Below, piece after piece: positions 1-23,620 of a stretch of DNA of 24,780 nt; position 1 is the stretch's first letter, and each line of letters starts with the position of its first letter. Origin of the DNA: a virus. The notes under the pieces are model-generated. The model saw nothing but the letters and a program-made list of their open reading frames with translations, was not told where the DNA came from and did no database searches. The stretch spans positions 1 through 24,780 of IMG/VR virus record IMGVR_UViG_3300025806_000210. One strand, written 5' to 3'. Made by a program: the position numbers and the translations under genes.

Positions 1-2
1 AG

Positions 3-353
3 CAACTATCCGTTGGACTTGATGGTGATGGTAGGGAAATAGGTAGGTATAGCCGTTATACGGAATTAATTGCACGTTATGAACTACCTAGGCCAATAAA
101 ACCAAAAGAGGCGGGTGAACTATACAATTTTGAGTGGACAGGAGATTGGAAAAGTAAAATGAAAGCTATTTTTTCAAACGAACGAGAATATGAGATATTA
201 AGCAGTGATGGCAAGCATAAGGAATTAATTGTCAAATACGGAGATGAAATTGTAAAACCAAGCGTAGACCTAAATGCATTTATAAACAAAAACATATTAA
301 AGCCTGGACTTTACCAGGAATTTGTAAACCGATTAAACAACGCAACAAAATGA
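3..353 (+). CDS. C-terminal part of a phage head/neck or tail-completion protein (5' end outside window)
   Basis: This frame is open from the first bases of the window to TGA at 353, giving at least 116 residues; the start lies upstream. An internal ATG at 159 would give only 64 residues, but the upstream part (GREIGRYSRYTELIARYELP) reads as normal protein, so I treat the gene as truncated by the window edge. The 'G..IG.YS..T' opening followed by 'ELYNFEWTGDWKSKM' resembles small neck or tail-completion proteins of Bacteroidota phages, from memory only. Position supports this, since it lies before a structural protein, a chaperone candidate and the tape measure gene, where gp10-like or tail-terminator genes usually sit. 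Its stop overlaps the next start as ATGA, so translation is probably coupled. Specific function is not established. Confidence 0.7.
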   Translation, partial: QLSVGLDGDGREIGRYSRYTELIARYELPRPIKPKEAGELYNFEWTGDWKSKMKAIFSNEREYEILSSDGKHKELIVKYGDEIVKPSVDLNAFINKNILKPGLYQEFVNRLNNATK

Positions 354-1180
354 AAAATATATTATTAATTTTTATAGTATTAGCAGCTTATTTAGGACAA
401 GCGCAAACAGTGGACCAATTTAGCTATTATGAGCGCATTATAAACGACTCATATGGCGATAATGCAAAAATATACAGTAAAGGTAAAACCCTGCGAAAGT
501 TTGGGAGAAACAATGATTTAGACACTGATGTCGAGGAGCAAATATGGGAACAAGGTGGATTTGAAATTATGGCAACGTCAAACAGCATTGACACTATGAG
601 CAGTTCAAGCGGAAGTGATACGCAAACTGTAACAATTGAAGGGCATTATTATGATGCTGACAATAACTTAATTTTTAGCATTCAGACAGCAATTTTAACG
701 GGTCAAACGAAAGTCACTTTAGCCACACCATTATCGCGTGCGACAAGGGTTTATAATACAGGCAGTACGGATTTAGTAGGCAATGTTTACGTATATGAGG
801 ACGGTGCAATTACAGCAGGCGTTCCTGACGATGCTGCGACTATCCATTTGTTTGCAACTGCAGGAAACCAACAAAGCTCAAAAGCAGCAACATCAACTTC
901 ATCTACGGATTATTGGGTTATTGTTAGGGTAAAATTTACAGTTGAAAAAACACAAACGTCAACGGTGGATTTTAAGGTACAAATTAGGGAGGCAAATGGT
1001 GTTTGGAGGTCGCAATTATTTGCAAGTTTAGCCGGTGCGCAAGGAACGTACCAAGTTGACTTAACCAATACGCCAATTATTATGAAGCCTAATTCAGACA
1101 TTAGGGTATTAGGAACTTCCAGTACCAATAATGTGATAGGAGGCGCGGAAATAGGAGGTTTTTTAGCAAAAGTTTTATAA
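350..1180 (+). CDS. Virion structural protein candidate with an N-terminal signal peptide
   Basis: The 276-residue protein begins with a basic residue and a hydrophobic stretch (residues 2-16) ending in LGQAQ, a typical Bacteroidota signal-peptidase I site after residue 18. From about residue 45 it carries 'KTLRKFGRNNDLDT' and 'EQIWEQGGF'. These recall a beta-rich structural protein common in marine phages, where FGRN.D.DT is followed by a W..GG segment. The remainder is Ser/Thr/Ala-rich and beta-like, with no enzyme motif. It sits where a major tail protein is expected, between a completion protein and the chaperone/tape measure pair, so a tail-tube or other virion role is possible. The start is fixed by ATGA overlap with the preceding stop. 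The signal peptide is odd for a cytoplasmically assembled virion component. Structural role is moderately likely; exact role unknown. Confidence 0.75.
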   Translation: MKNILLIFIVLAAYLGQAQTVDQFSYYERIINDSYGDNAKIYSKGKTLRKFGRNNDLDTDVEEQIWEQGGFEIMATSNSIDTMSSSSGSDTQTVTIEGHYYDADNNLIFSIQTAILTGQTKVTLATPLSRATRVYNTGSTDLVGNVYVYEDGAITAGVPDDAATIHLFATAGNQQSSKAATSTSSTDYWVIVRVKFTVEKTQTSTVDFKVQIREANGVWRSQLFASLAGAQGTYQVDLTNTPIIMKPNSDIRVLGTSSTNNVIGGAEIGGFLAKVL

Positions 1181-1779
1181 TGCTATACAGTGGAACGCAT
1201 GACATGCCAATATACCATTACACTAAATGTTTGGTAAACGACGAATTACGTTATATGGTAATAGGTTGGAATGAACGCGACGAGGTTGTGCTTCCAAAAG
1301 ACACTGAGGAAATATGGTTTGATATTTTTAACTCCTTTTGCACAAAAACAAGCACTAATGATACTGACACTTATTACGCCTTAATAAATGAATTAGACTA
1401 TTTGCGCAGGCGCTACAAAATGGTGGAAATATTAGTTAAGGAATTAAACGAAAATAATAGAGAAACTTACGGATATGAAATTAGTCAGTGGGAATTTAGT
1501 ATATTAGCAACTCCTATAAGTGAACAAAAAAAACATTTTGAAAAGCAGTTTAGGATAGCCAACCAGGATATTGAATTAAAACAAAGCGAAGTTGACAAGT
1601 GGTTAGAGGAAAACGACACAGGCGAGCCGGTAAAATTGTATAAGAAAAAAATTAGGTTGGAGCGCATCACAGGGCTCACAATTGATATAAAAACATGTGT
1701 TCTAGACGAATGGATAGAAATTATTAGCGAGGCTGATACCATTAACGAGGAATACTCAAAAGCGCACGCAAATGGCTAA
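1180..1779 (+). CDS. Putative tail assembly chaperone (gene immediately before the tape measure)
   Basis: This is a 199-residue, charged, mostly helical protein without signal peptide or membrane segment. Residues 45-75 contain a 'YYALINELDYLRRRYKMVEILVKEL' type helix (quoted in part), and residues 115-150 are rich in Glu and Lys. The start ATG shares its A with the TAA of the previous gene (TAATG), and the last 8 bases overlap the tape measure gene. A gene directly before and overlapping the tape measure is usually the tail assembly chaperone, which keeps the tape measure soluble during tail assembly; I assign it by position only, as I do not recognise the sequence. An 8-A run at 1526-1533 could in principle slip, but both alternative frames stop within a few codons, so there is no evidence for the classic programmed-frameshift extension. 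Confidence 0.75.
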   Translation: MLYSGTHDMPIYHYTKCLVNDELRYMVIGWNERDEVVLPKDTEEIWFDIFNSFCTKTSTNDTDTYYALINELDYLRRRYKMVEILVKELNENNRETYGYEISQWEFSILATPISEQKKHFEKQFRIANQDIELKQSEVDKWLEENDTGEPVKLYKKKIRLERITGLTIDIKTCVLDEWIEIISEADTINEEYSKAHANG

Positions 1780-4700
1780 AAATCCAATTACCGTAATTGA
1801 GGAAAGTAAACAGGAATTATCAGCCTTAAACCAAGTTTTAACAAGCACCAATACCTTAATACTTGAGATATCAGCCAATACACGCAAAGTAGGCAAGGAC
1901 TTTTTTAATGTTAAAAACCCAAAGCAAGCAAATGATGCATTGGCAAAACGAGCAAGCGCTGAAAGTAAGGTATTAACACTAATTAGGGAAAAGGAAAAGA
2001 TTAACAAAAGGTTAGCAGCAGGAGAAGCCAAAATTGCAGTGGCTATGACCTCGTCTAACAAACAATTAGCGCAGCAACGGTTTGAACTACAGGAGTTGAA
2101 TAGACGTGCAAAACAAGCAGCCGTTTTATCCTCAAGTTTGTCAACGGAATACCAAAAGCAAAGTGTCAGATTAATACAGTTACGAACAAAGTATAAGGAC
2201 GTCGCATTAACGCAAGGAGAATCCTCAAAAGCTGCTAGGGTATTACAGCGTGAAATCCAAAAATTAGATTTAAGGCTTAAAAGCGTTGATGGCAATGTAG
2301 GGCAATTCCAAAGGAGCGTTGGTAATTACGGTAAAGCGCTTAACGGTGCAGTTGGTGCAGCAAAAAAAATGGCAGGCGCATTAGGCTTAATGGGTGGTGC
2401 TTTTTTAGCAATTAGAATAGGACGAGATGCAATAAAAGTAATAAAGGACTTTGACAAAGCAAATGCCACATTGGCGTCAGTATTACAATTATCCAGGGAG
2501 GAAACACGAGGGTTGGCAGATGATGCGCAGCGCTTAGGTAGTATAACAGTAAAAACAGCACAGGAGGTGACTGAACTCCAAACAGCTTATGCGCGTTTAG
2601 GCTTTAACCAAACTGAAATAATTGATTTAACGGAAGCCACAATACAAGGCTCCATTGCTTTAAATAGTGAACTAGGCGCGACAGCTGAATTAACAGGTGC
2701 GTTGGTAAATACGTTTGATGAATTTGGCACAAATGACGCACCACAAATATTGGATATTTTATCCTTAGCAACGGCAAAATCCGCTTTAAACTTTCAAAAA
2801 TTACAAGCAGGTTTACCAATAGTTGCAGGAGCAGCCAATGCAGCAGGTGTACCGTTTACAAAGTTAGTGGCATTATTAGGAAAACTATCAGATGCAGGTA
2901 TTGATGTCAGTAGTTCATCAACAGCGCTAAGGAATATATTTATTGAGGCAGCGTCACAAGGATTAAATTACGAACAAATTTTAGATAAAATAAAAAGCAG
3001 CCAGGATAAGCTAACAGCATCCAACGATGAATTTGGTAAACGTGCCGCAGTTTCAGCCACTGTTTTAGCTGCAAATATAGCCGCTACCAACGAATTAGAC
3101 GTTGCCTTACAAAATGCAGCAGGAACGGCGCAAAGCATGGCAGATAAGGAGTTAGACACCTTAGACGGTGCTTTACAGCTATTAAAGTCAGCATGGCAAG
3201 GGTTTATACTAGGTGCAGACGGCTCAACGGGCGCTGCGGCTAAATTAAAAAGTGGTATCCAATTTTTAGCAGCAAATTTAGACAGGATATTAAAAGTAAT
3301 AATATTTGGCACAAAAGCATGGGTGGCTTATAAAACTGCATTACTATTAGCAAACGTTCAATCCAGGATATTTGCACTAACAGCATCGCAAACAGCAGCC
3401 GCAGCCACAGCACAAGCCGCAGCACAAACAGCAAATGCCGCAGCAACGACAGCAGCCACAACAGCTTGGCAGCGCTTTAATTTAGCATTAAAAGCAAACA
3501 TCATAGGAATATTGATTGGTTTAGCTATTGGCCTTTATACTGCAATACAAAGCCTTTATACTTCCTTAGAAGATAGCGTAAAAGCAACGGACGAGGCGAC
3601 GCGCGCATTTTTAGACCACGAACACGCGCTAAAAGCATCAGCAAATTCCACCAATACGCTGCTTGATAGGTATGATGAATTAACTAAAAAGCAAAAAGAA
3701 AATAAGGACGGTGCAAAACTTACAACAGCCGAGCAAAAGGATTTAGACGGAATAATAGTGCAATTAGCAAAGGATTATCCTAAAGCAACAGGCGAGATTG
3801 ACAAAAATACTGGAGCATTAATTATAAACACCGAACAAATTCGTAATAATTTAGCAGCGCAGGCTGGTGACATAAACAGCGCGCAAAAAAAGGCGCAGTT
3901 GTTAAAGGAAAATACTAATGAATTAAATTTGTTAGAAATGGCCCAAGAACGTTTAAATAAAACGGAGCGCGAGGGTGAAGCAGAAAAAATAGATAACATT
4001 GGTTTTGTTATACGCGAAGAAGGTAAACTTTACAAAGCAAAATTCCAAGCACAAACGAAATCATTTATAGCCACTAGGGAATTAAGCGTGGCAGAAATTG
4101 ATGCGGTAAATGCGGCAGTAGACGGCAATAGGGAATTAATTGCAACAAAAAAGGATTTTATACGTGAATTAAATGGCGAGAAAACGTCCAAGCAAATTAA
4201 CAATGAATTAACGGAAATTGAAAATAATTTAAAAGCTGAAAGCAAAAAACTAACAGACGAGGAAATTGACGTTGTGGCAAAATATAATGCTGAAATTGAA
4301 AAGCAAACGGATATCCTTAAAAAATTACGCGCACCTTTACAAGAGGAGGGAGGTAAAATAAACCCGTTAGACGAACAAGGTATAAAGGACGCTACAAAAG
4401 CACTAAACAACGCCAAAGCAGCGTTAAAAGAAATAACAGGTACCACAAAAGACAAAGACAAGGACAAGGATAACAGCGCGGGCAAACGGACAATTGATTA
4501 CCAATATAAAATAGACGAGGAAAGTTTAGAACAAGCTATTGCAGCAGACGAGGAAATTGCAACAGCTATTGACAACAACTTAAAAGATAGGCTTAAAGGC
4601 TTAGAGGACTTTGAAGCAAAATCTAAGGAGCTAGTAGACCTACGAAAAACGAAAGAAAAAGAAGATGTAAAAAGCAGCGTATTATCAGCAAAAGCAAAAG

Positions 4701-6079
4701 CCAAAGCCCTTGAATATATTGAACTGAAATACAAAGTTGTCTATACCAAAATACAAGAGGACAAGCAAAAAATAGCCGAAAAAATAATCAAAGACAGCAT
4801 TGATGCCGCTAAGGATTTTAAAACATTTGAGGAAACAGAATTAAGGCAAGCAAACGAAAAAGAGCTGCAAATTCGTAAAGATGCTTATGTAAAAGCTATT
4901 GAAGCTGCTGGCGATAATAAAGAGGCATTAAAAAAAGTAGAAGACGAATATACTGCTGATATTTTAGAAATAAAATTAAGGCAAGAATTAGCGATATTAG
5001 CACAGAAAAAAAAGTTCTTAGAAGCGCAATTAAAATTTGTTGTAGACCCTAAGAAACGCAAATTGATTGCGCAACAAATTGCAGGTATTGAAATTGCAAT
5101 GAGCACGCTAAAAACTGATTCGCAAATTAAAGACCTTAAACGTTTAAGAAACGCGCAGCAGGAAATAGATGATTTCAAACGCGACTCCTTAGCAGGTGCG
5201 TCAACAGTATTAGCCAATACCTTAAATATTGACGCCAATAATTTAAACATATTTTTACAAGGTGTTGTAGACGGATTTGATTCAGCCCTTGAGGGAATTT
5301 CAGCAGCTGCATTGGTTGCTGGAGATATTGTGAATGCTGTCTTTGAAGCTAAAATAGCCATGTATGACCAGGATATTGAAAAAAACAAAGCCTATTATGA
5401 TGCACTTTTAGACAACGAGGAATTAACGGATAAGCAGCGTACGGCATTAGAGGATAGAAAAGCAGCTAAGGAAGCTATTTTAGAGAAAAAGAAACGCGCA
5501 GCACGTAAAAAGCAAGCAGTATATGACAAGCTGTTTGGAGTGTTACAAGTTGGAATATCCACTGCCGTAGGTATACAAAAAGCTATCGCATCATTTCCAT
5601 TAACTGCTGGTCAACCTTGGGTTAGTATTATTGCAGCGCTTGGCGCAATACAAACGGCAGCAATATTATCACAACCAATACCAAACTATGCCACAGGGCG
5701 TGATGGTGGTAAGGCTGAATATGCTTATGTTGGTGATGGTGGCCGTAGTGAGATAATTGAGAAACCAAATAAAGACATCTACGTCACTCCTAATAATCCT
5801 ACATTAACTTACTTAGGTAAAGGTGACAAAGTTCACACAAGCCCACAAGCGTACCTTGACAGCGTATCTGATAAAGAATTATACAACAATATCCACAAGC
5901 ATGTAGCCATAGGAAATTTACAAGGGCAAACGGGTAGGTATTTATCAAACAGCACAGGCGCAAACAATAAGGAAATAGTAAAAGCAATTGAAAAAAACAA
6001 AGCAAGTGTAAAAGTTATCAATAATAATAATATAGGTGAGGAATTAAATTTTATCTTTAAACTGAACAGCACGTTATGA
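1772..6079 (+). CDS. Phage tail tape measure protein, TP901 family
   Basis: At 1435 residues this is the largest gene in the window. The N-terminal 220 residues are coiled-coil-like. Residues about 225-475 show the TP901 tape-measure core, including 'LGSITVKTAQEVTELQTAYA', 'ALVNTFDEFG' and 'KLVALLGKLSDAGID'. Hydrophobic segments lie near residues 195-215 and 574-596 (IIGILIGLAIGLYTAIQSLY), as expected for a protein that reaches the host membrane. Long Lys/Glu-rich helices follow. The C-terminus has the family's glycine-rich pattern (ATGRDGGKAEYAYVGDGGRS, then TPNNPTLTYLGKGDKV). The protein sets tail length; at the usual ~0.15 nm per residue this predicts a tail of roughly 215 nm. No sheath gene is visible, which fits a siphovirus. 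It overlaps the gene before by 8 nt and the gene after by ATGA. Confidence 0.95.
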   Translation: MAKNPITVIEESKQELSALNQVLTSTNTLILEISANTRKVGKDFFNVKNPKQANDALAKRASAESKVLTLIREKEKINKRLAAGEAKIAVAMTSSNKQLAQQRFELQELNRRAKQAAVLSSSLSTEYQKQSVRLIQLRTKYKDVALTQGESSKAARVLQREIQKLDLRLKSVDGNVGQFQRSVGNYGKALNGAVGAAKKMAGALGLMGGAFLAIRIGRDAIKVIKDFDKANATLASVLQLSREETRGLADDAQRLGSITVKTAQEVTELQTAYARLGFNQTEIIDLTEATIQGSIALNSELGATAELTGALVNTFDEFGTNDAPQILDILSLATAKSALNFQKLQAGLPIVAGAANAAGVPFTKLVALLGKLSDAGIDVSSSSTALRNIFIEAASQGLNYEQILDKIKSSQDKLTASNDEFGKRAAVSATVLAANIAATNELDVALQNAAGTAQSMADKELDTLDGALQLLKSAWQGFILGADGSTGAAAKLKSGIQFLAANLDRILKVIIFGTKAWVAYKTALLLANVQSRIFALTASQTAAAATAQAAAQTANAAATTAATTAWQRFNLALKANIIGILIGLAIGLYTAIQSLYTSLEDSVKATDEATRAFLDHEHALKASANSTNTLLDRYDELTKKQKENKDGAKLTTAEQKDLDGIIVQLAKDYPKATGEIDKNTGALIINTEQIRNNLAAQAGDINSAQKKAQLLKENTNELNLLEMAQERLNKTEREGEAEKIDNIGFVIREEGKLYKAKFQAQTKSFIATRELSVAEIDAVNAAVDGNRELIATKKDFIRELNGEKTSKQINNELTEIENNLKAESKKLTDEEIDVVAKYNAEIEKQTDILKKLRAPLQEEGGKINPLDEQGIKDATKALNNAKAALKEITGTTKDKDKDKDNSAGKRTIDYQYKIDEESLEQAIAADEEIATAIDNNLKDRLKGLEDFEAKSKELVDLRKTKEKEDVKSSVLSAKAKAKALEYIELKYKVVYTKIQEDKQKIAEKIIKDSIDAAKDFKTFEETELRQANEKELQIRKDAYVKAIEAAGDNKEALKKVEDEYTADILEIKLRQELAILAQKKKFLEAQLKFVVDPKKRKLIAQQIAGIEIAMSTLKTDSQIKDLKRLRNAQQEIDDFKRDSLAGASTVLANTLNIDANNLNIFLQGVVDGFDSALEGISAAALVAGDIVNAVFEAKIAMYDQDIEKNKAYYDALLDNEELTDKQRTALEDRKAAKEAILEKKKRAARKKQAVYDKLFGVLQVGISTAVGIQKAIASFPLTAGQPWVSIIAALGAIQTAAILSQPIPNYATGRDGGKAEYAYVGDGGRSEIIEKPNKDIYVTPNNPTLTYLGKGDKVHTSPQAYLDSVSDKELYNNIHKHVAIGNLQGQTGRYLSNSTGANNKEIVKAIEKNKASVKVINNNNIGEELNFIFKLNSTL

Positions 6080-8250
6080 GCCACCAAGTAGTCAAATTCA
6101 AATTAATAAACCACGACTCAGGTGCTATTTCTGGCAGCGGCTCAGACCCGTTTTTACCTACTGACCCTAAGGGTTATGAAAACAGTCAAAAAACGCTTAA
6201 AAGGAGTACCTCTAATTTTGGTGTATGGACTGAATTATCAAAGGATTTATTTTTTACAAAAGAAGGTGCGGACTTTTTAATTGATGCGTATACTGCAAAG
6301 TATATCCAAGCAAATGTCACACTTGAAGAATGGAGGCAGTTACCACACGAGGACGGCTTTTATTTATACAGCTCAGGCACATTTGATTTTAGTGAAATAG
6401 ACATACAAAAATTAGGAGTAAAAATACCATTTAAAACCGGTGGACTACATACAATAATTGAATCACAATTGACACAGGATTTTGAATTGCAGCGCTTAAC
6501 AAGTTTAAAAGGCGAGGTTTTGCCACCGTTGGAATTAAAAGACATACAACTAACAAGCCGGGCAATATTTTTATTAAGCCAATGGACTATTGAGGAGGGC
6601 AGTTTTTTAGGTATTGACCCACCAGGTGAGGGTTATTTTGGCTATGCCGGGCAATGGCGTACTCCAATGCTTAACATATTATCCAACAGTGATGCCGCCA
6701 ACGTGGCGCCCGTATTGCAGGAATTTATACCATGGACACTTTCAGGAAGTTTTGTACCTGAAGATTTAGCACCTGAGCCAATACATTTTTTTTATTTCCA
6801 AGTTGATTTAGCAAAAACAGTTAGGGTCTTAAATACAGCAACCTTAGAGGTTTTTGGTAGAAATGGCCAAAGCGTCAGTCTGTATATAATGCATACCGCG
6901 TTGGACTATTCGGTTACGGAGTTTAGGGAAATTTTTAGCTATCCATATAGTGCAGGAGATAGCATAAGGCAATATCCTATAAATGTTGATGAGGAGTTTG
7001 ATTTAATTGAGGGAGATAGCTTGATGTGGGTTTATAACATTGTAGCCAATGCTAGCGCCGGAGGCCAAGTTCAATGGGCCAGGTTTAGTGATTATGAAAT
7101 GTCATTAACAGAAGACAGTGTAGTGGACGACACTACCACAAAAGGGCTTTTAATACATGAGGCTGGTGAACGTTTAATGGAAATACTAACGGGTGAAACG
7201 GGCAGGTATTATAGTGAATTTTATGGTCGCACGGATATTGGATATGATGCTGATGGTGAATTTAGTTACACTGGATTAACTTATGGCTTTTGGATTAGAC
7301 AATTTTTTGAAAAGCAAATAACGCTTAATTGCAAGGAATTATTTGAAACTACCAATGCACTGCATGCAACAGGTTGGACAATTGATACAATAGACGGAGT
7401 TGAAGTTTTAGTCCACGAGGATTTAAAATATTTTTTCCAACAGCGCACTTTAATTAAGATACCTGGACAAGTAAGTAAGTATATGAAAAAGCCTGCTAAG
7501 GAATTTGTATATCCAAATGCTGAATGGGGGTACGACAAGGGTGGAGAGGACTATGATGAGGCGCATGGATTAGATGAATACAATGGTAAAATAAACCACA
7601 CGCATCCATTTGATAGGGTGCAAAAAGGATTAAAAGTAACAAGTCCTTCAAGGGGAGATAAATATGGTGCTGAATTTGCTAGACGCAGGCCAAAGGAAAC
7701 TTATCCACGCGAGGATACGTCATATGATAGTGACAAATGGGTATTGGATTTAAAAGAGGGATTAGGTACTTTTTTACAGGAACGCACCTGGGAGGATGAT
7801 TACGAGGAAGCGCCGGTAAATGTATACAGCCCTGAAACTGCTACTAATTTAAGGATAACACCTTTTAGGAATAGTGAGCGACATGAATGGTGGTATAGTG
7901 GTAGTATGAAAGCGTTTCAAGACGAGGTTATACGCTTTTCAAGTAACATAGGAAACAGCAGTTTAGGAACAAAAAAAGTTGGTGAAGTTATACGTTATGA
8001 GGACGGCAACAAAAACATAAACGAGCTTGAAAAACCACGCGTGCAATTTGAGTGGATAACATTTTCTTATCCCTTAAATTACGAACTATTAAACCAAGTA
8101 TATGGCAGGACTAACATTGACGGCAGGAGTGTACCAAATTACTTTGGATTAGTGGAATACTACAATGACAAAAACCAAAAAGAATACGGATATTTATTTC
8201 AATTAGAGCCTTCAAAAGAGGGTAAATGGAAACTATTAAAAGCATCATAA
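6076..8250 (+). CDS. Distal tail / baseplate protein candidate following the tape measure
   Basis: The 724-residue protein starts at an ATGA overlap with the tape measure stop. It has no signal peptide or transmembrane segment. It is rich in aromatic and acidic residues with alternating polar/hydrophobic stretches typical of beta-rich tail proteins, for example residues 30-60 (LKRSTSNFGVWTELSKDLFF). A Trp/Tyr-rich stretch near residues 385-415 (YTGLTYGFWIRQFFEKQ) and a C-terminal 'YGRTNIDGRSVPNYFGLVEY' stand out but match no motif I know. The gene directly after the tape measure normally encodes the distal tail protein that joins tube to baseplate or fibres. At this length it may combine distal-tail and tail-associated functions. 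The assignment rests on gene order. Confidence 0.75.
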   Translation: MSHQVVKFKLINHDSGAISGSGSDPFLPTDPKGYENSQKTLKRSTSNFGVWTELSKDLFFTKEGADFLIDAYTAKYIQANVTLEEWRQLPHEDGFYLYSSGTFDFSEIDIQKLGVKIPFKTGGLHTIIESQLTQDFELQRLTSLKGEVLPPLELKDIQLTSRAIFLLSQWTIEEGSFLGIDPPGEGYFGYAGQWRTPMLNILSNSDAANVAPVLQEFIPWTLSGSFVPEDLAPEPIHFFYFQVDLAKTVRVLNTATLEVFGRNGQSVSLYIMHTALDYSVTEFREIFSYPYSAGDSIRQYPINVDEEFDLIEGDSLMWVYNIVANASAGGQVQWARFSDYEMSLTEDSVVDDTTTKGLLIHEAGERLMEILTGETGRYYSEFYGRTDIGYDADGEFSYTGLTYGFWIRQFFEKQITLNCKELFETTNALHATGWTIDTIDGVEVLVHEDLKYFFQQRTLIKIPGQVSKYMKKPAKEFVYPNAEWGYDKGGEDYDEAHGLDEYNGKINHTHPFDRVQKGLKVTSPSRGDKYGAEFARRRPKETYPREDTSYDSDKWVLDLKEGLGTFLQERTWEDDYEEAPVNVYSPETATNLRITPFRNSERHEWWYSGSMKAFQDEVIRFSSNIGNSSLGTKKVGEVIRYEDGNKNINELEKPRVQFEWITFSYPLNYELLNQVYGRTNIDGRSVPNYFGLVEYYNDKNQKEYGYLFQLEPSKEGKWKLLKAS

Positions 8251-8251
8251 T

Positions 8252-10291
8252 ATGGCAAGCACATTATATTTCACAGTCAACAGTTTACCCGCATTAGACG
8301 AGGAGTTTTATGTTGATGTTACAATAGACGCGTCAACTATACAAACCCTGAGAGAAACTTTCAAATTAACTAGACGCCTAATAGGACAAAGCGCAATAGG
8401 TACTTCCGTAGCTGAATGCACAAATAACCTTTATACAGCAATAATGGCTGATTATAATAGTTATGGATTATATACAATCACTTATAATTTTGTAGCAGGC
8501 ACAATAACAGTAACAGCCAATAATCCAAGTGTGGAATTTGCTGTAACAAGCAACACCACGGGAGGCGCAGTAACAGTATCTGTCACAAATGATGCAACGG
8601 ATGCGATATCCGTAACAAGCGTTACAGGCGCTGAAGCTTTTTCAGACCCTTGTGATAACGTATTGCTAACAGTTACAACAAACGTCCAAGCGGATAATAT
8701 TACATCGCCAATATCCTCTCCTATATTTGCTAACCCTTTTGACATAACAGTTGCAAGGAGTCCAACTAACATGTATTTGGTAGCAAACTTAGGCAGCACA
8801 ACGGCAACTTATCCATTCCGATGCCCGCCTTTAGTTGCATCTTATTTTGATATTGACATAACAAATAATCCAACAGGTGCAGGTGTCAGCGTGCAATCAT
8901 TAAGCATTATGAGCGCAGGTGCTGGACCACTATTATTAACTTTAGAATACAGCTTGGACAACGTGCTTTGGCAAACGGGAAACAGTTGGAGTGGTTTAGC
9001 TGCTGATGACTATACTGTTTATATTAGGGACGGACTTGGCTGCCAAATATCAATTGATTTTACGGTAGAGGCTTTTAATCCTAACTATATTGACTATGAC
9101 CCTATTGCTGATATTAGCAAAATTAATCCTTTTGCCTTTAAAAAAGCTGAAACCATTAGTGACTGCGGCACGCAATTAAACCCGCTTAACACTTTATCAT
9201 ATGAAGAGAATACGCTGCTAAACAACAAAACGTTCAAACAAATTTTTCAAACGTGTGACAATATTAGCACGCAATTAAAAACCAATTATGATACCGTAAC
9301 TGCAAACCTAATTGACTGCGACGCAACCGAAACGCCAATTACTGTAATTAAAAAGACGGATAACATGGGTAAGACAGACGTTCGTGACTGTAAAATATAT
9401 TTGAGTGCTGGTAGTAGTGTTTGGATTTACTTTACAGTAGGCAACACGTATGACCCTGATACACTAATTGCAAATGGCAGTTATGATACCGGTGGTAATT
9501 TACCAACTTTTATAAATGAGGGAGATGCTGTCAGTTTAGAGGGCTTTGGTTGGGTAACAATTTTAGAAGTATTTCCAAGCACACCTGGTTTAACCTCAAC
9601 AGCACGCGCAAAAACGTCACTAGAGGATATTGACGGTATTTACACGAATGGTCAAACAATAAAATTAACAAGTGTCTACAATGTAGTAAATTATGAACGT
9701 TATGAATTTGATTTAGATATGAGCGCACTGCTTGGAGATTATTACATTCAAGTGGATTTAACGCATGTAGAATTTGCTGCATGTACCTTAGTAAGTGAAT
9801 GGTTTAATGTAAAAGCGCAGCAGCCAAAACACCATTTAATTGAATATTATAATAGTGAAAATAATGAGATTAATTTTGGTACAGGAATAACGTTTAAATT
9901 AAGGATACCTTATATTAAGCAAATGACGTTTCAACCTGCAACGGAAAAGGATACTTATATTACTGATACGCAAACGGTAAGCCTGGAAAGTAGAGGGCGT
10001 GAACAATATGCAATAACCTTTTTTCCAATGCCTACAATAATGGCTAGGAAAATTGCAGCGGTAATGGAGCAGGATAAGTTAATGATAGGAGGTTTATTAT
10101 ATGTCACGGAAGAGGAAACAAGCATAAACCGTTTAGGAAGCACAAATTTATACAGCGTTGAAGCCGTAATAATACGTTCGGATTATGTGTTTGAAACGCA
10201 AACAGGAACGTCACTTGATGAAATATTAGCAATTGAAAGCGCATTCCTGGAATTAGATGAAAATTCAAGTGGATTATTAAAAATAGATTAA
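8252..10291 (+). CDS. Tail/baseplate protein with a SprB-like Ig domain
   Basis: A 679-residue beta-rich protein starting one base after the previous stop. Residues 45-115 form a small domain ('SAIGTSVAECTNNLYTAIMA' then 'YNFVAGTITVTAN') of a kind seen in tail and baseplate proteins. Residues about 224-275 read as one Ig-like module: 'LEYSLDNVLWQTGNSWSGLA' followed by 'YTVYIRDGLGC'. This is the 'YS.dn..wq....f.gLaaG.YtVyV.D..GC' pattern of SprB repeats found in Bacteroidota gliding adhesins. The C-terminal ~140 residues are a separate region (PKHHLIEYYNSENNEINFGT, then ITDTQTVSLESRGREQYAIT). It likely sits at the tail tip and contacts the cell surface. The SprB-like reading is from pattern memory; the tail role is from gene order. 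Confidence 0.75.
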   Translation: MASTLYFTVNSLPALDEEFYVDVTIDASTIQTLRETFKLTRRLIGQSAIGTSVAECTNNLYTAIMADYNSYGLYTITYNFVAGTITVTANNPSVEFAVTSNTTGGAVTVSVTNDATDAISVTSVTGAEAFSDPCDNVLLTVTTNVQADNITSPISSPIFANPFDITVARSPTNMYLVANLGSTTATYPFRCPPLVASYFDIDITNNPTGAGVSVQSLSIMSAGAGPLLLTLEYSLDNVLWQTGNSWSGLAADDYTVYIRDGLGCQISIDFTVEAFNPNYIDYDPIADISKINPFAFKKAETISDCGTQLNPLNTLSYEENTLLNNKTFKQIFQTCDNISTQLKTNYDTVTANLIDCDATETPITVIKKTDNMGKTDVRDCKIYLSAGSSVWIYFTVGNTYDPDTLIANGSYDTGGNLPTFINEGDAVSLEGFGWVTILEVFPSTPGLTSTARAKTSLEDIDGIYTNGQTIKLTSVYNVVNYERYEFDLDMSALLGDYYIQVDLTHVEFAACTLVSEWFNVKAQQPKHHLIEYYNSENNEINFGTGITFKLRIPYIKQMTFQPATEKDTYITDTQTVSLESRGREQYAITFFPMPTIMARKIAAVMEQDKLMIGGLLYVTEEETSINRLGSTNLYSVEAVIIRSDYVFETQTGTSLDEILAIESAFLELDENSSGLLKID

Positions 10292-10310
10292 AATTCAATA
10301 CCTTTAAGAA

Positions 10311-11177
10311 ATGGGATTATTAGATGAAGTTTACAGTATATTAGCCAACTCCAAAAAAGGAAGTGAAGTGCCAACAGCTACATCGGTGTCTGGCAGTGAT
10401 TGGATATTGTTTTGGAATACAAGTACAAACCAATTGGAAAAAATATTAAACAGCAACTATTCAGCCTCAATTAGTGTATGGGCGCCTATTACTTTTGGCA
10501 CTGTAACAAGCGCAGGCACAACCACTACGGAAACAGAAATAGCCAACTATATCAACGCTGTTGGTTTTACAGTTAATGACAATGAAATACCATTATTAAA
10601 ACTAAATGTATATATCAACTTACAAGTGCAAAAGCGCATTTATGTATTAAAATCCAACGCGCCAGGTGACTACGGTACAGCGGCAGCAAACGAAATAGCC
10701 TACACTGACATTGAAATTATAACTGAAAGCGCTTTTAATACGTTCTCAGATACCTCAGAAACAATTGATTTAGGAGATATTGGCTCAGATACTATTGAGG
10801 ACCATTTGAACGCCTTAGTGGGCACCACACATGTTTTGTTAGATGACAAAATTTATATGTTTACATGTGTAAAGGACAGCCAAGCTGAAAGTTATTTATA
10901 CGTAGGCCCTTTACCAAACACCCTAGGTGATGGAGGCAGCACTGCTACCGCCAGCATGTTTTATTTATTTGTAACACCTGGTTGGATATGGATAGCAGAT
11001 TCCTGGGTACAAAAAGGAACAGGAAATAATAATACTACAATATTAGAGGCTGATGATATTGTATTTTATAAGCCGGTAACATATAATGCAAACAAACTAT
11101 CCTTAGTAGGTTGGAAATATGTTTCAGGAAACACAGGTTTACAAAGCAGCTATACTAAATTCTTAAATATCGCATAA
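10311..11177 (+). CDS. Tail fibre-associated protein, function unknown
   Basis: This 288-residue protein starts at ATG 10311, 19 bases after the previous stop. The N-terminus (MGLLDEVYSILANSKKGSEV) is a short helix. It is followed by 'PTATSVSGSDWILFWNTSTN', an S/T-rich segment seen at the start of many Bacteroidota phage fibre-like proteins. The rest is beta-rich with no catalytic motif, signal peptide or membrane segment. Its TAA is directly followed by the ATG of the next fibre-like gene with no spacer, suggesting the two are made together. It may be an adaptor or fibre component near the tail tip. I do not recognise a defined family. Confidence 0.7.
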   Translation: MGLLDEVYSILANSKKGSEVPTATSVSGSDWILFWNTSTNQLEKILNSNYSASISVWAPITFGTVTSAGTTTTETEIANYINAVGFTVNDNEIPLLKLNVYINLQVQKRIYVLKSNAPGDYGTAAANEIAYTDIEIITESAFNTFSDTSETIDLGDIGSDTIEDHLNALVGTTHVLLDDKIYMFTCVKDSQAESYLYVGPLPNTLGDGGSTATASMFYLFVTPGWIWIADSWVQKGTGNNNTTILEADDIVFYKPVTYNANKLSLVGWKYVSGNTGLQSSYTKFLNIA

Positions 11178-12479
11178 ATGAAAAAACTAATTTTATTTGC
11201 TGCAATACTTTTTTGCAGTGTATTACAAGCGCAGGACTGGCACTTTAACGGTGTTATTATACCTGGACAAACAACAGACCCAACAGGCATAAATGCCGGG
11301 CAAATAACGTGGGATACGGACGACTTTAAGTTTAGGTATTACAACGGTACAACGTGGGAGGATTTAACAAGTGAAACCTCATCTGAATGGTATGAATATA
11401 CAGACACAAGGGCAGCGGATTTAGTTGTAAAAATAGGCGATTATGACAGCTCTAGCAACGGTTTTCATACAATAACATCAGTAGAGGAACAGCTTTTCCA
11501 AGTAGTCAGTGATGCTTATGTAGGTGGTGCATTTACCGCAACTCCAATTTCCATGTCTATTTATGATGAAACAGGCGCAGGACCAGGAGGATTTACAGCA
11601 AGTTTTTCAAGTCAAAACACGGATATTACAGGAAATAGGGTTTATGATATTCCTGATGCAAGTGGCGTTTTAGCGCTTGAAGCTGATGCCTCAGGATTTA
11701 CAGGAAATTTAACTACTTCGGATAATACTTTGCAGGAAATTGCTGACGCTGTTGATGGGTTAGTTGTTGGAGGTGATGTGTCAGTAAACGGCACGCCCGT
11801 AGGAGGACAATTAGCAGTTTGGTGGACAGGTACACCTGCTACAATACGAGGAGATGGCGCTTTATGGTACACTGATGCGGCTGTCAAAGTATTAAGCGCA
11901 GGATTAGATGATACTGACCCGGGCAGTTTTAGAGGTTGGGGAGGTTCAGCAAGTGCAGGTGGTAGTGTTTTTTTGTATAGCGGTGCAACGGGCGACACTT
12001 TTACGGAGTATTACAAAATTGAAAACACGCAAGGAAATTTCAGCATAACGGATGAAACCGTTGATGTTTTAGAATACAATACACAGGACAATGATTGGAT
12101 GATGTCTGACTACGGTGGAGGTACGGTTACAGCGGGTTATCCCACATATAATTTGCAAGTAAACAGCCAAGGAGTAATAGTTGAAACGGGCGCAGTTTTA
12201 AATGATGTTAGCACATCACGCGCAATTATAAGCACTGACTCTGAAAACATTATTACATTAAACAACGCGGGCGCAGTTGCAGTTACAATACCGTCAAATG
12301 CCGCAGTTGATTTTCCAATTGGAACTAAAATAACATTGATAAATATAGGTGCAGGAACAGTGACAGTAGGTATAACTGACGACACATTAAGCAACAACGT
12401 TGGAGGCTTAACTTTAGCGCAGTATGACAAACGAACCCTAACAAAAATAACAGCGACCAACTGGATATTAGGATATTAA
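11178..12479 (+). CDS. Fibre-like / receptor-binding protein candidate with signal peptide
   Basis: The 433-residue protein opens with MKKLILFAAILFCSVLQAQD, a clear signal peptide with a predicted cut after LQA. Next is 'GINAGQITWDTDDFKFRYYN', a fibre-type motif in which a predicted observation is compared with 'GTTWEDL'. 'RVYDIPDASGVLAL' (about residues 154-167) is a phrase common in phage tail fibres. The C-terminal ~90 residues (SRAIISTDSENIITLNNAGA, then 'FPIGTKITLINIGAGTVTV') resemble the trimerising tip domain of many fibre proteins, ending in a conserved-looking WILGY. There is no S74 chaperone domain. It is probably a receptor-binding or fibre protein. As with the gene at 350, a secretion signal on such a protein is unexpected; it could instead be exported from the infected cell. 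Confidence 0.75.
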   Translation: MKKLILFAAILFCSVLQAQDWHFNGVIIPGQTTDPTGINAGQITWDTDDFKFRYYNGTTWEDLTSETSSEWYEYTDTRAADLVVKIGDYDSSSNGFHTITSVEEQLFQVVSDAYVGGAFTATPISMSIYDETGAGPGGFTASFSSQNTDITGNRVYDIPDASGVLALEADASGFTGNLTTSDNTLQEIADAVDGLVVGGDVSVNGTPVGGQLAVWWTGTPATIRGDGALWYTDAAVKVLSAGLDDTDPGSFRGWGGSASAGGSVFLYSGATGDTFTEYYKIENTQGNFSITDETVDVLEYNTQDNDWMMSDYGGGTVTAGYPTYNLQVNSQGVIVETGAVLNDVSTSRAIISTDSENIITLNNAGAVAVTIPSNAAVDFPIGTKITLINIGAGTVTVGITDDTLSNNVGGLTLAQYDKRTLTKITATNWILGY

Positions 12480-12532: not shown

Positions 12533-12997
12533 ATGACACCAAAGGAACAACAAGAATTTGCAGCAATTTTAGTTAAAGAAATGCAAGCATCAGCACCACC
12601 GGTAAAAACTGCCGAAAGTTTATTTTTAAACAATAAAAACCTGCTGGATTTACTTTTTAAAGGCTTGCTAGGCTTATTAGTATGGATGGGCTCAGGTATG
12701 AAAACGGATTTAGAAAAAGTTATGACTGACGTAAACCAAATAAAGGTTGAACGCAAATATGACCAAACTGAAGTTGCAGTATTTAAGGAAGCGCTAAAGG
12801 AGCCTAGGTACACGAGGGAGGACCATTTATTGGAAACCAAACCTTTAGTAAACAGCGTGGCCAGGAATACTGCTGAATTGCAAACAAGAAACCCGATTAT
12901 AACGGAGAATACCAATGCCATAATAGCATTAAAGTATGACACGTCAAAAAACGCGGAAAACATTTCTGAAATATTAAAAATATTAAAAGCGAGATAA
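12533..12997 (+). CDS. Single-pass membrane protein with coiled-coil tail, unknown
   Basis: This 154-residue protein has a short polar N-terminus (MTPKEQQEFAAILVKEMQAS), one hydrophobic segment at about residues 37-55 (LLDLLFKGLLGLLVWMGSG), and a long charged helical region with heptad-like spacing. It lies after the fibre genes and starts a run of small membrane proteins, so a role at the host membrane, for example in lysis or holin-type functions, is possible, but I recognise no family. The 53-base gap before it holds only a weak AT-rich inverted repeat (TTTTGA/TCAAAA near 12501-12518), not a convincing terminator. The next gene begins 2 bases after its stop. Confidence 0.65.
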   Translation: MTPKEQQEFAAILVKEMQASAPPVKTAESLFLNNKNLLDLLFKGLLGLLVWMGSGMKTDLEKVMTDVNQIKVERKYDQTEVAVFKEALKEPRYTREDHLLETKPLVNSVARNTAELQTRNPIITENTNAIIALKYDTSKNAENISEILKILKAR

Positions 12998-12999
12998 GT

Positions 13000-13143
13000 A
13001 TGAAAAGCGAGGGTTTAGGCGATACCGTAGAAAAGATATTAAAACCAATTGTAAAGTTCACGTCGCGTTACAGTGCTGGTCCATGCGCCTTATGCGAGGA
13101 AAGGAAACAAAGTTTAAATAAAAAATTCCCGTATAAAAAATGA
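13000..13143 (+). CDS. 47-aa small protein with a CxxC motif
   Basis: A short gene with ATG at 13000 and TGA at 13141-13143, overlapping the next ATG as ATGA. The protein begins MKSEGLGDTVEKILKPIVKF and ends in 'PCALCEERKQSLNKKFPYKK'. The combination of GLGDT.EK at the N-terminus with a Cys-pair followed by (K/R)...LN..FPY recalls a tiny protein repeatedly seen near lysis or tail genes of Bacteroidota and marine phages. The CxxC pair could bind a metal only if partners supply two further ligands, or could be redox-active. Coupling by overlap to the membrane protein downstream supports it being translated. Function unknown. Confidence 0.65.
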   Translation: MKSEGLGDTVEKILKPIVKFTSRYSAGPCALCEERKQSLNKKFPYKK

Positions 13144-13442
13144 ACGACAACAAACAACTAACAACAGCAAAACCATTGGAAACGCAGGAAGGTTTATTTA
13201 TAATGAAATGGCGCAGTTTTGTTCCTATGATTATAGGCATTATATTAAGCACAAATACCGTATCCATATTTTATCAAAAGCAACAGCGGCATGACGAGGA
13301 GTTATTGCACCAAGCAGCATTAATTGAATATAATAAGGAACGCGCTGATAGGATAGCTGAACGCAAAAGCATGGAAGCAAAAGCGTATTATGACAATATG
13401 ATATTGAAATTGGAATTGCAAAAATGTAAAAACAGCCTTTAA
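13140..13442 (+). CDS. Small single-pass membrane protein with charged helical tail
   Basis: The 100-residue protein has a polar N-terminus, one hydrophobic segment at about residues 26-45 (SFVPMIIGIILSTNTVSIF), and a long charged helix (residues 47-95) rich in Glu, Lys and Arg. This layout of short cytoplasmic end, single membrane span and periplasmic coiled coil is shared by inner-membrane spanins and some holin accessory proteins, but the real lysis block is 3-5 kb downstream, so I give no function. It starts within the stop of the 47-aa gene (ATGA), and the next gene follows without a gap. Confidence 0.6.
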   Translation: MNDNKQLTTAKPLETQEGLFIMKWRSFVPMIIGIILSTNTVSIFYQKQQRHDEELLHQAALIEYNKERADRIAERKSMEAKAYYDNMILKLELQKCKNSL

Positions 13443-13670
13443 ATGGAAAAGCATGTTATTATAAAAAAAAGCAAGTGGATTGATAAAATATTAGCAAAGC
13501 AAACAAAATTTAGGAAAAACAACCTAAATAAATTAGCTTTACAAATGATAAAAGACGTGCCTTTGCACGAACGCAAAAGGATTGACAAATTAGATATTTT
13601 AGTAGGAATTGACACAGCAGAAAACAAACTACAAGGATATTTGACATATAAAAACGGAATGTTATATTAA
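13443..13670 (+). CDS. Small basic protein, unknown
   Basis: A 75-residue, strongly basic protein whose ATG follows the previous TAA directly. The N-terminal half is Lys-rich (MEKHVIIKKSKWIDKILAKQ), and the C-terminal half (DKLDILVGIDTAENKLQGYL) looks folded. There is no membrane segment or Cys pair. Tight spacing with its upstream neighbours indicates a shared transcript. The Lys-rich part could bind nucleic acid or the membrane surface, but this is only a possibility from composition. I do not recognise a family. Confidence 0.55.
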   Translation: MEKHVIIKKSKWIDKILAKQTKFRKNNLNKLALQMIKDVPLHERKRIDKLDILVGIDTAENKLQGYLTYKNGMLY

Positions 13671-13687
13671 TTTAAAAACGAGTAAAA

Positions 13688-14110
13688 ATGGCAGATTTAG
13701 TTTACAACAGCTTTAAAAGGGACATTATGGACGGCACCCTTGATTTAAGCACGCAAGACATCAAAGTGATGTTGGTCACAAGTGGGTATACACCTAATAT
13801 TGATACGGACGAATTTATTGATGACGTTACCAATGAGGTAGTAGGAACAGGATATACGGCAGGAGGACAGTCGTTAGCATCGAAAACGGTGGTGGTAGAT
13901 GATACAAATGACAGAGGTGTTTTTGATTCAGCAAACCCTGAATGGACAACGGCTACAATCACAGCGCGTGGTGCTGTTTTGTATTATGACACAGGCACAC
14001 CTGCAACATCTCCTTTAATTGGTTATTGGGATTTTGGAACGGACCAAACGTCAACCGCAGGAACCTTTACAATTAACATCAATGTAGTTGGAATTTTGAC
14101 ATTGACATAG
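13688..14110 (+). CDS. Conserved small phage virion protein
   Basis: The 140-residue protein opens with 'ADLVYNSFKRDIMDGTLDLS', then 'DIKVMLVTSGYTPNIDTDEF', and contains 'ITARGAVLYYDTG' and 'LIGYWDFGTDQTSTAGTFTI'. This is a widely distributed phage structural protein pattern (YNSFKRDLM...IKVMLVTSSYTPD...ITNEVTGTGYTAGG...ARGAVLYKDTG), known from many tailed phages as a small virion or tail-associated component; exact placement in the particle is not known to me. Length matches the family. A short AT-rich spacer with a hairpin follows before the large fibre gene, so it may be expressed separately from what follows. Confidence 0.8.
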   Translation: MADLVYNSFKRDIMDGTLDLSTQDIKVMLVTSGYTPNIDTDEFIDDVTNEVVGTGYTAGGQSLASKTVVVDDTNDRGVFDSANPEWTTATITARGAVLYYDTGTPATSPLIGYWDFGTDQTSTAGTFTININVVGILTLT

Positions 14111-14133
14111 TAAGTGTAATCACCAAGTATTAT

Positions 14134-14157
14134 ACCCTTAATTTTAGCATTAAGGGT
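14134..14157 (+). terminator. Hairpin between virion protein and fibre genes (weak terminator)
   Basis: ACCCTTAA (14134-14141) pairs with TTAAGGGT (14150-14157) around an 8-nt loop. Only a short TTTA follows instead of a real U-tract. It could attenuate transcription or protect mRNA ends; a strong terminator is unlikely because no promoter is evident before the fibre gene. Confidence 0.4.
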
Positions 14158-14174
14158 TTACCTTAATCACTATT

Positions 14175-17600: not shown

Positions 17601-17948
17601 ATGAAAACAAAATGGTACATAATAATAGGAGTAGTGATAGCGTCAATTATTGCTATATACCTATACAAGGGAGGCAGCAAAAGCCTTTTAGACATGGTTA
17701 AGGAACCTGAAATTGCTAAGATTAAGCAATTAAACGCAAAAATAGACAGTTTAAAGGCGTCGTTAATTATAAGCAAAGCAATACACGAAAACGACAAAGC
17801 GCTGTTGGAAAAGCAAAAAGAATCATTAAATATTGCACTATCACACCTAATTAAAAAGCAAAAGCAAAATGAAACAGATATTATTAATTATTCTGGTGAC
17901 TTTAACAGGCGTTTCCGTCAGTTCTCAGTCCTTGCCAATACAAACTAG
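17601..17948 (+). CDS. Inner-membrane spanin-like protein
   Basis: The 115-residue protein has one N-terminal membrane span (residues 5-22, WYIIIGVVIASIIAIYLY) and then a charged helix with heptad-like spacing (35-95, e.g. IAKIKQLNAKIDSLKASL). This is the layout of i-spanins (N-in, coiled coil in the periplasm), which work with an outer-membrane partner to destroy the outer envelope during lysis. The next gene overlaps its last 80 bases in another frame, as is typical for spanin pairs. It starts right after the terminator T-run, which is unusual. The call comes from topology and gene overlap only. Confidence 0.55.
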   Translation: MKTKWYIIIGVVIASIIAIYLYKGGSKSLLDMVKEPEIAKIKQLNAKIDSLKASLIISKAIHENDKALLEKQKESLNIALSHLIKKQKQNETDIINYSGDFNRRFRQFSVLANTN

Positions 17949-18291
17949 GTACCAAGGAGAAAACGCTGTAATTATTAGCGAGGCTCAAATGGACAATTTA
18001 AGTTTAAAGGTATTGGAATTAGCTTTGGCCAAAAATAAATTAGCAACTTTTCAAATTCAATTTAATTTGCTGCAAAAGGATTTGGCATTAATGCAAAGCA
18101 AATCCACATATTTGGAAGCGCTATCAAACAGCCAAGCGGATATAATTACTTCCTTACAAGAGGTAGCACAAAGCCAGGATAGGATTAACGAGGCTGAACA
18201 AATAAATTTAAAACAAAAAAACAAAAACAAGTGGGTCAGCTACCTAGTTGGTTTTGCAGTGGGTGCGACCGCTGTTTTAGTACTTAATTAA
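17869..18291 (+). CDS. Spanin-like exported coiled-coil protein with C-terminal anchor
   Basis: This gene lies 80 bases inside the previous gene, in another frame. The 140-residue product has a signal peptide (MKQILLIILVTLTGVSVSSQ, cleavage near VSS/Q), then 'YQGENAVIISEAQMDNLSLK', a long helix (about 40-115) and a C-terminal hydrophobic segment at 122-139 (WVSYLVGFAVGATAVLVLN). There is no lipobox cysteine, so it is not a classic outer-membrane o-spanin lipoprotein. Signal peptide plus C-terminal anchor is closer to a unimolecular or inverted-topology arrangement. With its overlapping partner it may be a diverged Bacteroidota spanin system. Function inferred from context. Confidence 0.55.
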   Translation: MKQILLIILVTLTGVSVSSQSLPIQTRYQGENAVIISEAQMDNLSLKVLELALAKNKLATFQIQFNLLQKDLALMQSKSTYLEALSNSQADIITSLQEVAQSQDRINEAEQINLKQKNKNKWVSYLVGFAVGATAVLVLN

Positions 18292-23518: not shown

Positions 23519-23620
23519 TTGAAGCATTTCAAAAAAATATATAAGGCAGTGGATTATAAAGGTTGTGATGTACCTTTGTTTGAAGCTGCCTTTCTTCATT
23601 TAAACCAAATAAAAATATGA
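23519..23620 (+). CDS. Possible 33-aa leader ORF before folE (TTG start)
   Basis: The AAAACATCA element (23505-23513) is followed by TTG 23519, and the frame runs to TGA 23618-23620, overlapping folE's ATG as ATGA. The product (MKHFKKIYKAVDYKGCDVPL, then 'FEAAFLHLNQIKI') has a natural composition. The frame is open to an ATG at 23480, but that lies in the -7 region of P5 and so would not be transcribed. If translated, this ORF would feed ribosomes onto folE and would pass through the nested dyad at 23543-23592. It could equally be part of a structured leader. Confidence 0.45.
   Translation: MKHFKKIYKAVDYKGCDVPLFEAAFLHLNQIKI
23543..23592 (+). other. Nested inverted repeats in the folE leader
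   Basis: AAGGCAG (23543-23549) pairs with CTGCCTT (23586-23592). Inside, AAAGGT (23558-23563) pairs with ACCTTT (23572-23577) around an 8-nt loop. Between the stems lie 8-nt unpaired stretches. It is not followed by a T-tract. It could be an RNA switch or simply a coding stretch with chance pairing. Confidence 0.4.

Follow-up and report, generated by a model that had tools for sequence, protein, structure and literature searches.

Predicted Sec leaders on two tail-block proteins of a marine flavobacterial phage, candidates for virion parts joined outside the cytoplasm

In the textbook view, tailed phages assemble in the cytoplasm, and their tail-fibre genes are presumed to lack export signals. 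Proteins with export signals have been described in phages of Porphyromonas gingivalis, in which genes of unknown function carry signal peptides and might modify the host envelope (PMC10367356), and in Bdellovibrio, whose MAT fibres are phage-tail-fibre-like adhesins with signal peptides (PMC10769870). In the flavophage paper that defined the Assiduviridae, two pectate lyases are listed among the core genes, and signal peptides are unmentioned (PMC8776804). A known hallmark of signal peptidase I (SPI) substrates in Bacteroidetes is that they mostly have glutamine at +1 (PMC5837995), which is referred to below as the Q-rule. Here, we analyse the IMG/VR record IMGVR_UViG_3300025806_000210, which comes from a marine flavobacterial phage and is taken as a whole (24,780 bases, hereafter the window), and in particular two genes of its tail block, named 350 and 11178 after their first positions, whose products begin with leaders of this type. 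The P. gingivalis phage genes share the Bacteroidetes Q-rule leaders with the window but are not tied to virion fibres (PMC10367356), whereas the Bdellovibrio MAT fibres differ from it in being chromosomal proteins of a predatory bacterium, outside any phage particle. In the open-access literature, no paper was found that connects Sec leaders to virion fibres in tailed phages.

Both proteins have the sequence features of Bacteroidetes Sec/SPI substrates, i.e., a basic n-region, a hydrophobic h-region, a small residue at -3, A, G or S at -1, and Q at +1. The residues at -3/-1/+1 are G/A/Q in 350 and L/A/Q in 11178, leucine at -3 being tolerated by the rule and not its strongest choice. The leader is followed by QTVDQF in 350 (predicted mature start QTVDQFSYYER) and by QDWHFN in 11178 (predicted mature N-terminal peptide QDWHFNGVIIPG). 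A fixed leader rule of our own (basic n-region, eight uncharged residues, small residues at -3 and -1, and Q at +1) matched 13 of the 517 forward open reading frames (ORFs) of related phage stretches, with 0/342 antisense ORFs and 2/10,340 shuffled N-termini as controls. In the 52-kb genome of the same phage, it selects three genes only: 350, 11178, and a spanin-like gene at 17869, which the earlier note on this DNA had overlooked. The cysteine at +1 of a lipobox, which would mark a lipoprotein cleaved by signal peptidase II, is absent from both 350 and 11178, with Q standing there instead, and Pfam and NCBIfam searches gave no match to a C-terminal secretion domain of the type IX secretion system (T9SS; Por_Secre_tail and kin). 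The leaders of 350 and 11178 are genuine predicted Sec/SPI signals, as the earlier note had read from their ends (GQA and LQA before Q). It is also right that each start is closely tied to the gene before it, although codon 21 of 350 is a GTG that could serve as an alternative (weighed below): the ATG of 350 runs into the stop codon of the preceding tail gene (ATGA, 350-353), and that of 11178 directly follows the TAA of the gene at 10311-11177, so that the frame cannot be extended upstream, and the next possible start lies no earlier than codon 126. Likewise, both genes do lie in a structural block, surrounded by phrog_6195, the PF10145 tape measure, and virion structural families.

The premise of that note, namely that fibre proteins normally lack such signals, fails in this group of phages. 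In five Cellulophaga phages, 14 leader-bearing distal-tail proteins are annotated as virion proteins by tandem mass spectrometry (MS/MS), the virion status being taken throughout from the proteomics notes in GenBank. These are gp101-104 of phi19:1 (KC821607; all four after the distal tail genes and noted as 'structural protein, experimental MS/MS proteomics'), gp91-94 of phi10:1 (KC821618), gp85-87 of phi18:3 (KC821620), gp08 of phiSM (KC821616), and gp25-26 of phi39:1 (KC821626). The five phages, several of which are unrelated to one another, span the Assiduviridae, the Pachyviridae, and two unclassified genomes; phiSM is unclassified, and its close relative phi3ST:2 has a tail-sheath gene. 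Glutamine is found at +1 in 13 of the 14 proteins, a count that is illustrative only, as the sites were chosen by us. In phi19:1, leaders are present on 4/4 proteins of the fibre cluster and on 0/10 other MS/MS proteins (Fisher p 0.001); core head and tail proteins are leaderless, and therefore the leaders mark the adhesion cluster specifically. Like the window, the Cellulophaga clusters consist of distal-tail adhesion genes with Q-rule leaders, located in the tail block or directly after it. Unlike the window, they encode products annotated as virion proteins by MS/MS, and beyond the leader and general fibre features, the sequences are mostly unrelated; in those parts of the genomes that were read, no gene of the 350 type is located close to the tape measure.

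Comparison of phi19:1 with Nekkels_1 reveals that the leader and the N-terminal ~40-200 residues are 82-100% identical, whereas the remainder is only 20-40% identical. In gp101 and gp102, the first ~120-200 residues are conserved to this extent (82-100%), and the rest has been replaced. The codon changes within the leaders of these two pairs are exclusively synonymous (two synonymous and no nonsynonymous, and five synonymous and no nonsynonymous, respectively), and the third pair has one synonymous and two nonsynonymous changes. The leader-anchor of gp103, which is as short as 34-63 residues, 19 of them leader, heads bodies that differ from one another, and in gp81 of phi46:3 it is found on the body of gp102. 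Such leader-anchor cassettes are shared by different phage families and have been exchanged among bodies, and judging from these substitutions, the leaders look to be under selection. Tail fibres that dock by their N-termini usually combine an invariant N-terminal part with C-termini that can be exchanged. The constant, leader-bearing N-terminus with swapped C-termini corresponds to this anatomy, which argues that the leader-bearing proteins are parts of the particle.

Apart from its leader, 350 belongs to a family of virion proteins. Residues 47-267 match the phrog_8198 profile (E 1.8e-8), and the identity is 39-43% to the relatives in contigs L003, L045, and L046 and 19-26% to the other relatives. 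The relatives occur in viral contigs and cyanophages near capsid or tail genes; those in L046 and L049 adjoin presumed capsid genes, and the cyanophage ones are annotated as tail fibre or virion structural protein. A tblastn search with 350 in isolated phages gave no match. Mature 350 appears as a distant member of the phrog_8198/cyanophage family (Synechococcus phages MA01 and S-H9-1), with which it shares a KFG motif and the same beta-rich layout; unlike 350, all examined members are leaderless, a regularity seen here and not part of any published definition. The AlphaFold model built with a 10-row alignment has a mean predicted local distance difference test (pLDDT) score of 71.8 (38 for the single sequence) and consists of a beta-rich body, from which leader residues 1-18 stand apart with low confidence. 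Foldseek matched this model to jelly-roll or beta-sandwich proteins, including a cyanophage portal-tail chain and a short tail fibre, all with low template-modelling scores. Thus, the fold of 350 is predicted to be beta-rich and of virion type, and no closer assignment is drawn. A sequence search of PDB chains with 350 and 11178 returned nothing.

Gene 11178 is located downstream of the distal tail genes, as are fibre and minor tail proteins of tailed phages. Residues 332-430 of its product match phrog_8780 minor tail protein (E 2.3e-10), and tblastn finds minor tail proteins of Gordonia and Streptomyces phages (to E 1e-10), the likeness being confined to the C-terminal ~100 residues; no full-length homologue was found except in the second record of the same phage. 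Two prophages have the same tail module and gene order as the window, with a leader-bearing fibre or lyase gene directly 3' of a leaderless hub gene, and differ from it in that no counterpart of 350 was seen. At the position of 11178, the Winogradskyella prophage L024 (16990-18522) has a protein with a Q-rule leader and a pectate-lyase-like body, and the Flavobacteriaceae prophage L030 (11543-12826) has one that combines a Q-rule leader with the minor-tail domain present at the C-terminus of 11178; another pectate-lyase-like gene comes next in L030. L021 is without an extra fibre gene, and a section of its hub protein is similar to residues 45-157 of 11178 (pairwise E 1e-6; E 0.03 in a search space of 10 million residues), which hints that a fibre lacking a leader can incorporate the 11178 domain. 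An apparent likeness between the N-terminus of 11178 and MS/MS-annotated gp25 of phi39:1 (E 4.5e-5 with the leader, no match without it) was driven by the leader and was not used.

The explanation we prefer, and consider somewhat probable, is that 350 and 11178 are virion adhesion or decoration proteins that are exported via Sec, cleaved, and joined to the particle in the periplasm or at lysis; the virion membership of 350 and 11178 themselves we infer. Capsids and tails would be built in the cytoplasm without the exported parts, and the 350 and 11178 chains would be exported to the periplasm by Sec during infection. Removal of the leader by signal peptidase would make Gln19 the N-terminus, which would probably be cyclised to pyroglutamate. 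Because neither a lipobox nor a T9SS domain was found, the exported fibres are presumed to be held in the periplasm until lysis by holin, endolysin, and spanins, at which point the waiting fibres would attach to tails or heads. In phages such as T4 and P22, tail fibres and tailspikes are known to be added late, to particles that are otherwise finished, and attachment at lysis is therefore physically plausible. Of the earlier note's suggestion that the proteins are exported during infection, the export itself stands as the likely meaning of the leaders, whereas the decoy and exclusion roles that it proposes can be dispensed with, since leaders are found on MS/MS-annotated virion proteins and virion adhesins that pass through Sec are simpler. 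A decoy, a block to superinfection, and the note's third idea, assembly that involves the membrane, are conceivable alternatives. A broader claim, that a group of Bacteroidota tailed phages completes its virions outside the cytoplasm, with host-recognition proteins that are Sec-exported, trimmed, and joined only at lysis, is in our judgement evenly balanced. Export might avoid premature sticking, block re-adsorption to debris, or serve a need for periplasmic folding. Periplasmic O-glycosylation was considered as a reason and rejected because the motif D-S/T-[AILVMT] is not enriched (24 vs. 42 expected in leader-bearing fibres and 28 vs. 42 in leaderless ones); the cysteines of leader-bearing and leaderless fibres do not differ either.

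Several observations weigh against virion adhesins that pass through Sec. Export, cleavage, and late attachment are deduced from sequence, the MS/MS evidence consists of GenBank notes on other phages, whose particle preparations could contain co-purified secreted proteins, and once its leader is removed, 11178 shows no detectable N-terminal homology to an MS/MS-annotated protein. Moreover, gp09 of phiSM and gp95 of phi10:1 have leaders and no MS/MS note, and leaders are absent from the fibre blocks of JQ, Arctus_1, Freya_1, Danklef_1, P12002L, FCL-2, B40-8, and P2559S. These eight phages lead us to reject the proposition that all flavophage fibres have leaders, and since flavophages with leaderless fibres exist, phages that live in this manner can dispense with export. 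The two unlisted proteins are in line with an alternative that we regard as unlikely, in which the proteins are adhesins or depolymerases that never enter the virion and are secreted to the periplasm or onto the surface of the infected cell; there they would hide receptors, prevent superinfection or re-adsorption to debris, or make the capsule looser, with the virion detections explained by co-purification. The pectate-lyase-like nature of several leader-bearing proteins fits this alternative as well, as does the interpretation of Porphyromonas phage Q-rule proteins as modifiers of the host envelope (PMC10367356). However, it must then be accepted that 14 leader-bearing proteins in five phages were annotated as virion proteins by MS/MS, that a conserved leader-plus-anchor with swapped C-termini copies the pattern of tail-docked fibres, and that the family of 350 is one of virion proteins, all of which argue against it. 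Both roles might also be combined, with export in excess, so that one part of the protein coats the producing cell and debris and stops re-adsorption, and another part is fitted to virions at lysis. This follows from an export signal and virion membership taken together and is inseparable from the preferred explanation on the present results, but no outer-membrane sorting signal was seen (no secretion C-terminal domain in Pfam), which leaves exposure at the surface before lysis unexplained; we consider it rather improbable.

The origin of the leaders themselves can also be questioned, as none was found among 13 examined relatives of 350. The earlier note had raised the case of homologues that lack the hydrophobic segment; this applies to 350, whereas the genes at the 11178 position in the two prophages have leaders. 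In the alignment, the 350 leader ends where leaderless relatives begin, e.g., that of L003 (MAVTTEQTPSEF), and cleavage would therefore leave a mature 350 that resembles its relatives. Because the leader ends at this point and obeys the Q-rule, the absence from relatives is read as the gain of a leader, added at the mature N-terminus, and not as a mis-called start. A leader added to a leaderless family, together with the fact that bacteria possess exported phage-fibre-like proteins (the Bdellovibrio MAT fibres, PMC10769870), would suit leaders that are passive relics, i.e., neutral baggage of genes captured from secreted host adhesins or lyases. Such relics are very improbable, given that leader codons have changed only synonymously in two of the three pairs while the downstream parts were replaced, and that different leaders are found on non-homologous anchors, with Q at +1 in nearly all of the MS/MS proteins. 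Finally, the GTG at codon 21 of 350 could start a leaderless protein similar to the relatives, so that the start might be mis-called, or the hydrophobic segment might be an uncleaved membrane-anchor helix kept as structure. We find this scarcely credible: 11178 offers no comparable start, a Q-rule leader is expected by chance in only ~2 of 10,000 cases, and an uncleaved helix leaves the Q at +1 unexplained.

If adhesion parts of many flavophage virions do pass through Sec, completion of the virion would include a periplasmic or lysis-time step, which would provide a handle on the timing of infectivity, on the means by which new particles escape binding to the cell that made them, and on the part that signal peptidase and glutaminyl cyclase of the host play in phage production. 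There is also a consequence for annotation, as leader-bearing fibre and pectate-lyase genes of Bacteroidota phages are filed as morons (the PHROG label of one leader-bearing family is 'moron, auxiliary metabolic gene and host takeover'), though several of their products are MS/MS-annotated virion proteins.

The same phage is present in a record from a different metagenome, IMGVR_UViG_3300007276_000008 (52,228 bp; L015), which is circularly permuted relative to the window and differs from it by 4 mismatches in 24.7 kb, none within the leaders; genes 350 and 11178 are identical. Because its ends overlap by 123 identical bases, this record is probably a complete phage genome of ~52.1 kb. Relatives of the tail module are flavophages (Tenacibaculum JQ, Leeuwenhoekiella Arctus_1, Cellulophaga phi19:1 and Nekkels, and Polaribacter Freya, Danklef, and P12002L), and in a wide search, prophages with phrog_15220 were found in 5/399 Flavobacteriaceae genomes; a six-row alignment intended for collection scans was set aside as too diverse. 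The tail block runs in the order tail protein (1-353), 350, 1180, 1772, 6076, 8252, 10311, and 11178 (Table 1). Gene 1180 has counterparts at the same position in JQ, Arctus_1, and phi19:1. The protein encoded at 6076-8250 is 35% identical to one of JQ and ~24% identical to MS/MS-annotated gp97 of phi19:1, and that encoded at 8252-10291 is akin to a JQ protein and to MS/MS-annotated gp98 of phi19:1. The N-terminus of the 10311 product is similar to those encoded in JQ, L021, and L030, the likeness to L024 being judged by eye.

Table 1. Features of the window (Q-rule sites and cleavage positions are predicted).
Feature	Position	Strand	Family match or remark
Tail protein gene, 3' part	1..353	+	phrog_6195 tail protein, E 1.3e-5; full gene L015:18741-19214
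Leader-bearing virion-family protein, 276 aa, predicted beta-sandwich decoration/fibre type	350..1180	+	phrog_8198
Sec/SPI leader of 350, 18 codons, MKNILLIFIVLAAYLGQA	350..403	+	Q-rule site; predicted cleavage before Q19
Pre-tape-measure gene, likely tail assembly protein	1180..1779	+	phrog_32987, E 3.2e-18
Tail tape measure protein	1772..6079	+	PF10145, E 7.7e-16; many PHROG tape-measure matches
Distal tail structural protein	6076..8250	+	phrog_15220 ('virion structural protein'), E 1.9e-86
Distal tail structural protein	8252..10291	+	phrog_26672 ('virion structural protein'), E 9.3e-48
Leaderless fibre/hub gene	10311..11177	+	N-terminus conserved around NSKKGxxLP
Leader-bearing fibre-like protein, 433 aa	11178..12479	+	C-terminal domain of phage minor tail proteins
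Sec/SPI leader of 11178, 18 codons, MKKLILFAAILFCSVLQA	11178..11231	+	Q-rule site; predicted cleavage before Q19
Inner-membrane spanin-like gene (putative)	17601..17948	+	N-terminal transmembrane segment and coiled region; overlapped by 17869, nested frame
Third Q-rule leader gene, spanin-like	17869..18291	+	leader MKQILLIILVTLTGVSVSS before Q and C-terminal hydrophobic segment, in place of lipobox

Leader-bearing proteins were also seen at other places in the phage sequences compared. JQ encodes a small one in the head gene region (L009:9181-9639; MKKLLLLALLLWGINTNA before Q), and so does Croceibacter phage P2559S (L056:12432-12935; MKLKSTLFILLVAAIGLTCNA before A); the fibres of both phages are leaderless. 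In L023, a protein of 140 residues with the leader MKKLVIFLVAIFAFVAFANA before Q is encoded at 1594-2016, directly after a presumed capsid gene (phrog_7231 virion structural protein), and appears to be a decoration protein with a leader, similar to the product of gene 350. The same stretch encodes, after the tail genes, a fibre-like protein of 952 residues (12776-15634) with the leader MKKLILFLGLFIIGLNLLS before Q, whose C-terminus appears S74 chaperone-like by eye, Pfam giving no match.

Outside the tail block, the nested spanin-like pair of the window is found again in prophage L030 (16115-16456/16386-16748), and the 17869 type is possibly a Bacteroidota outer spanin that is not a lipoprotein. 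The ORF at 14175-16349 (724 residues) contains about a dozen repeats of ~24 residues (like INVGILNANFSLETATVTANENTS), has no family match save a weak beta-solenoid one, and is perhaps a repetitive fibre shaft. A GTP cyclohydrolase I gene (PF01227, E 1.4e-65) at 23617-24165 suggests nucleotide modification of the 7-deazaguanine/queuosine type; queuosine genes are annotated in Cellulophaga phage phi3ST:2 too.

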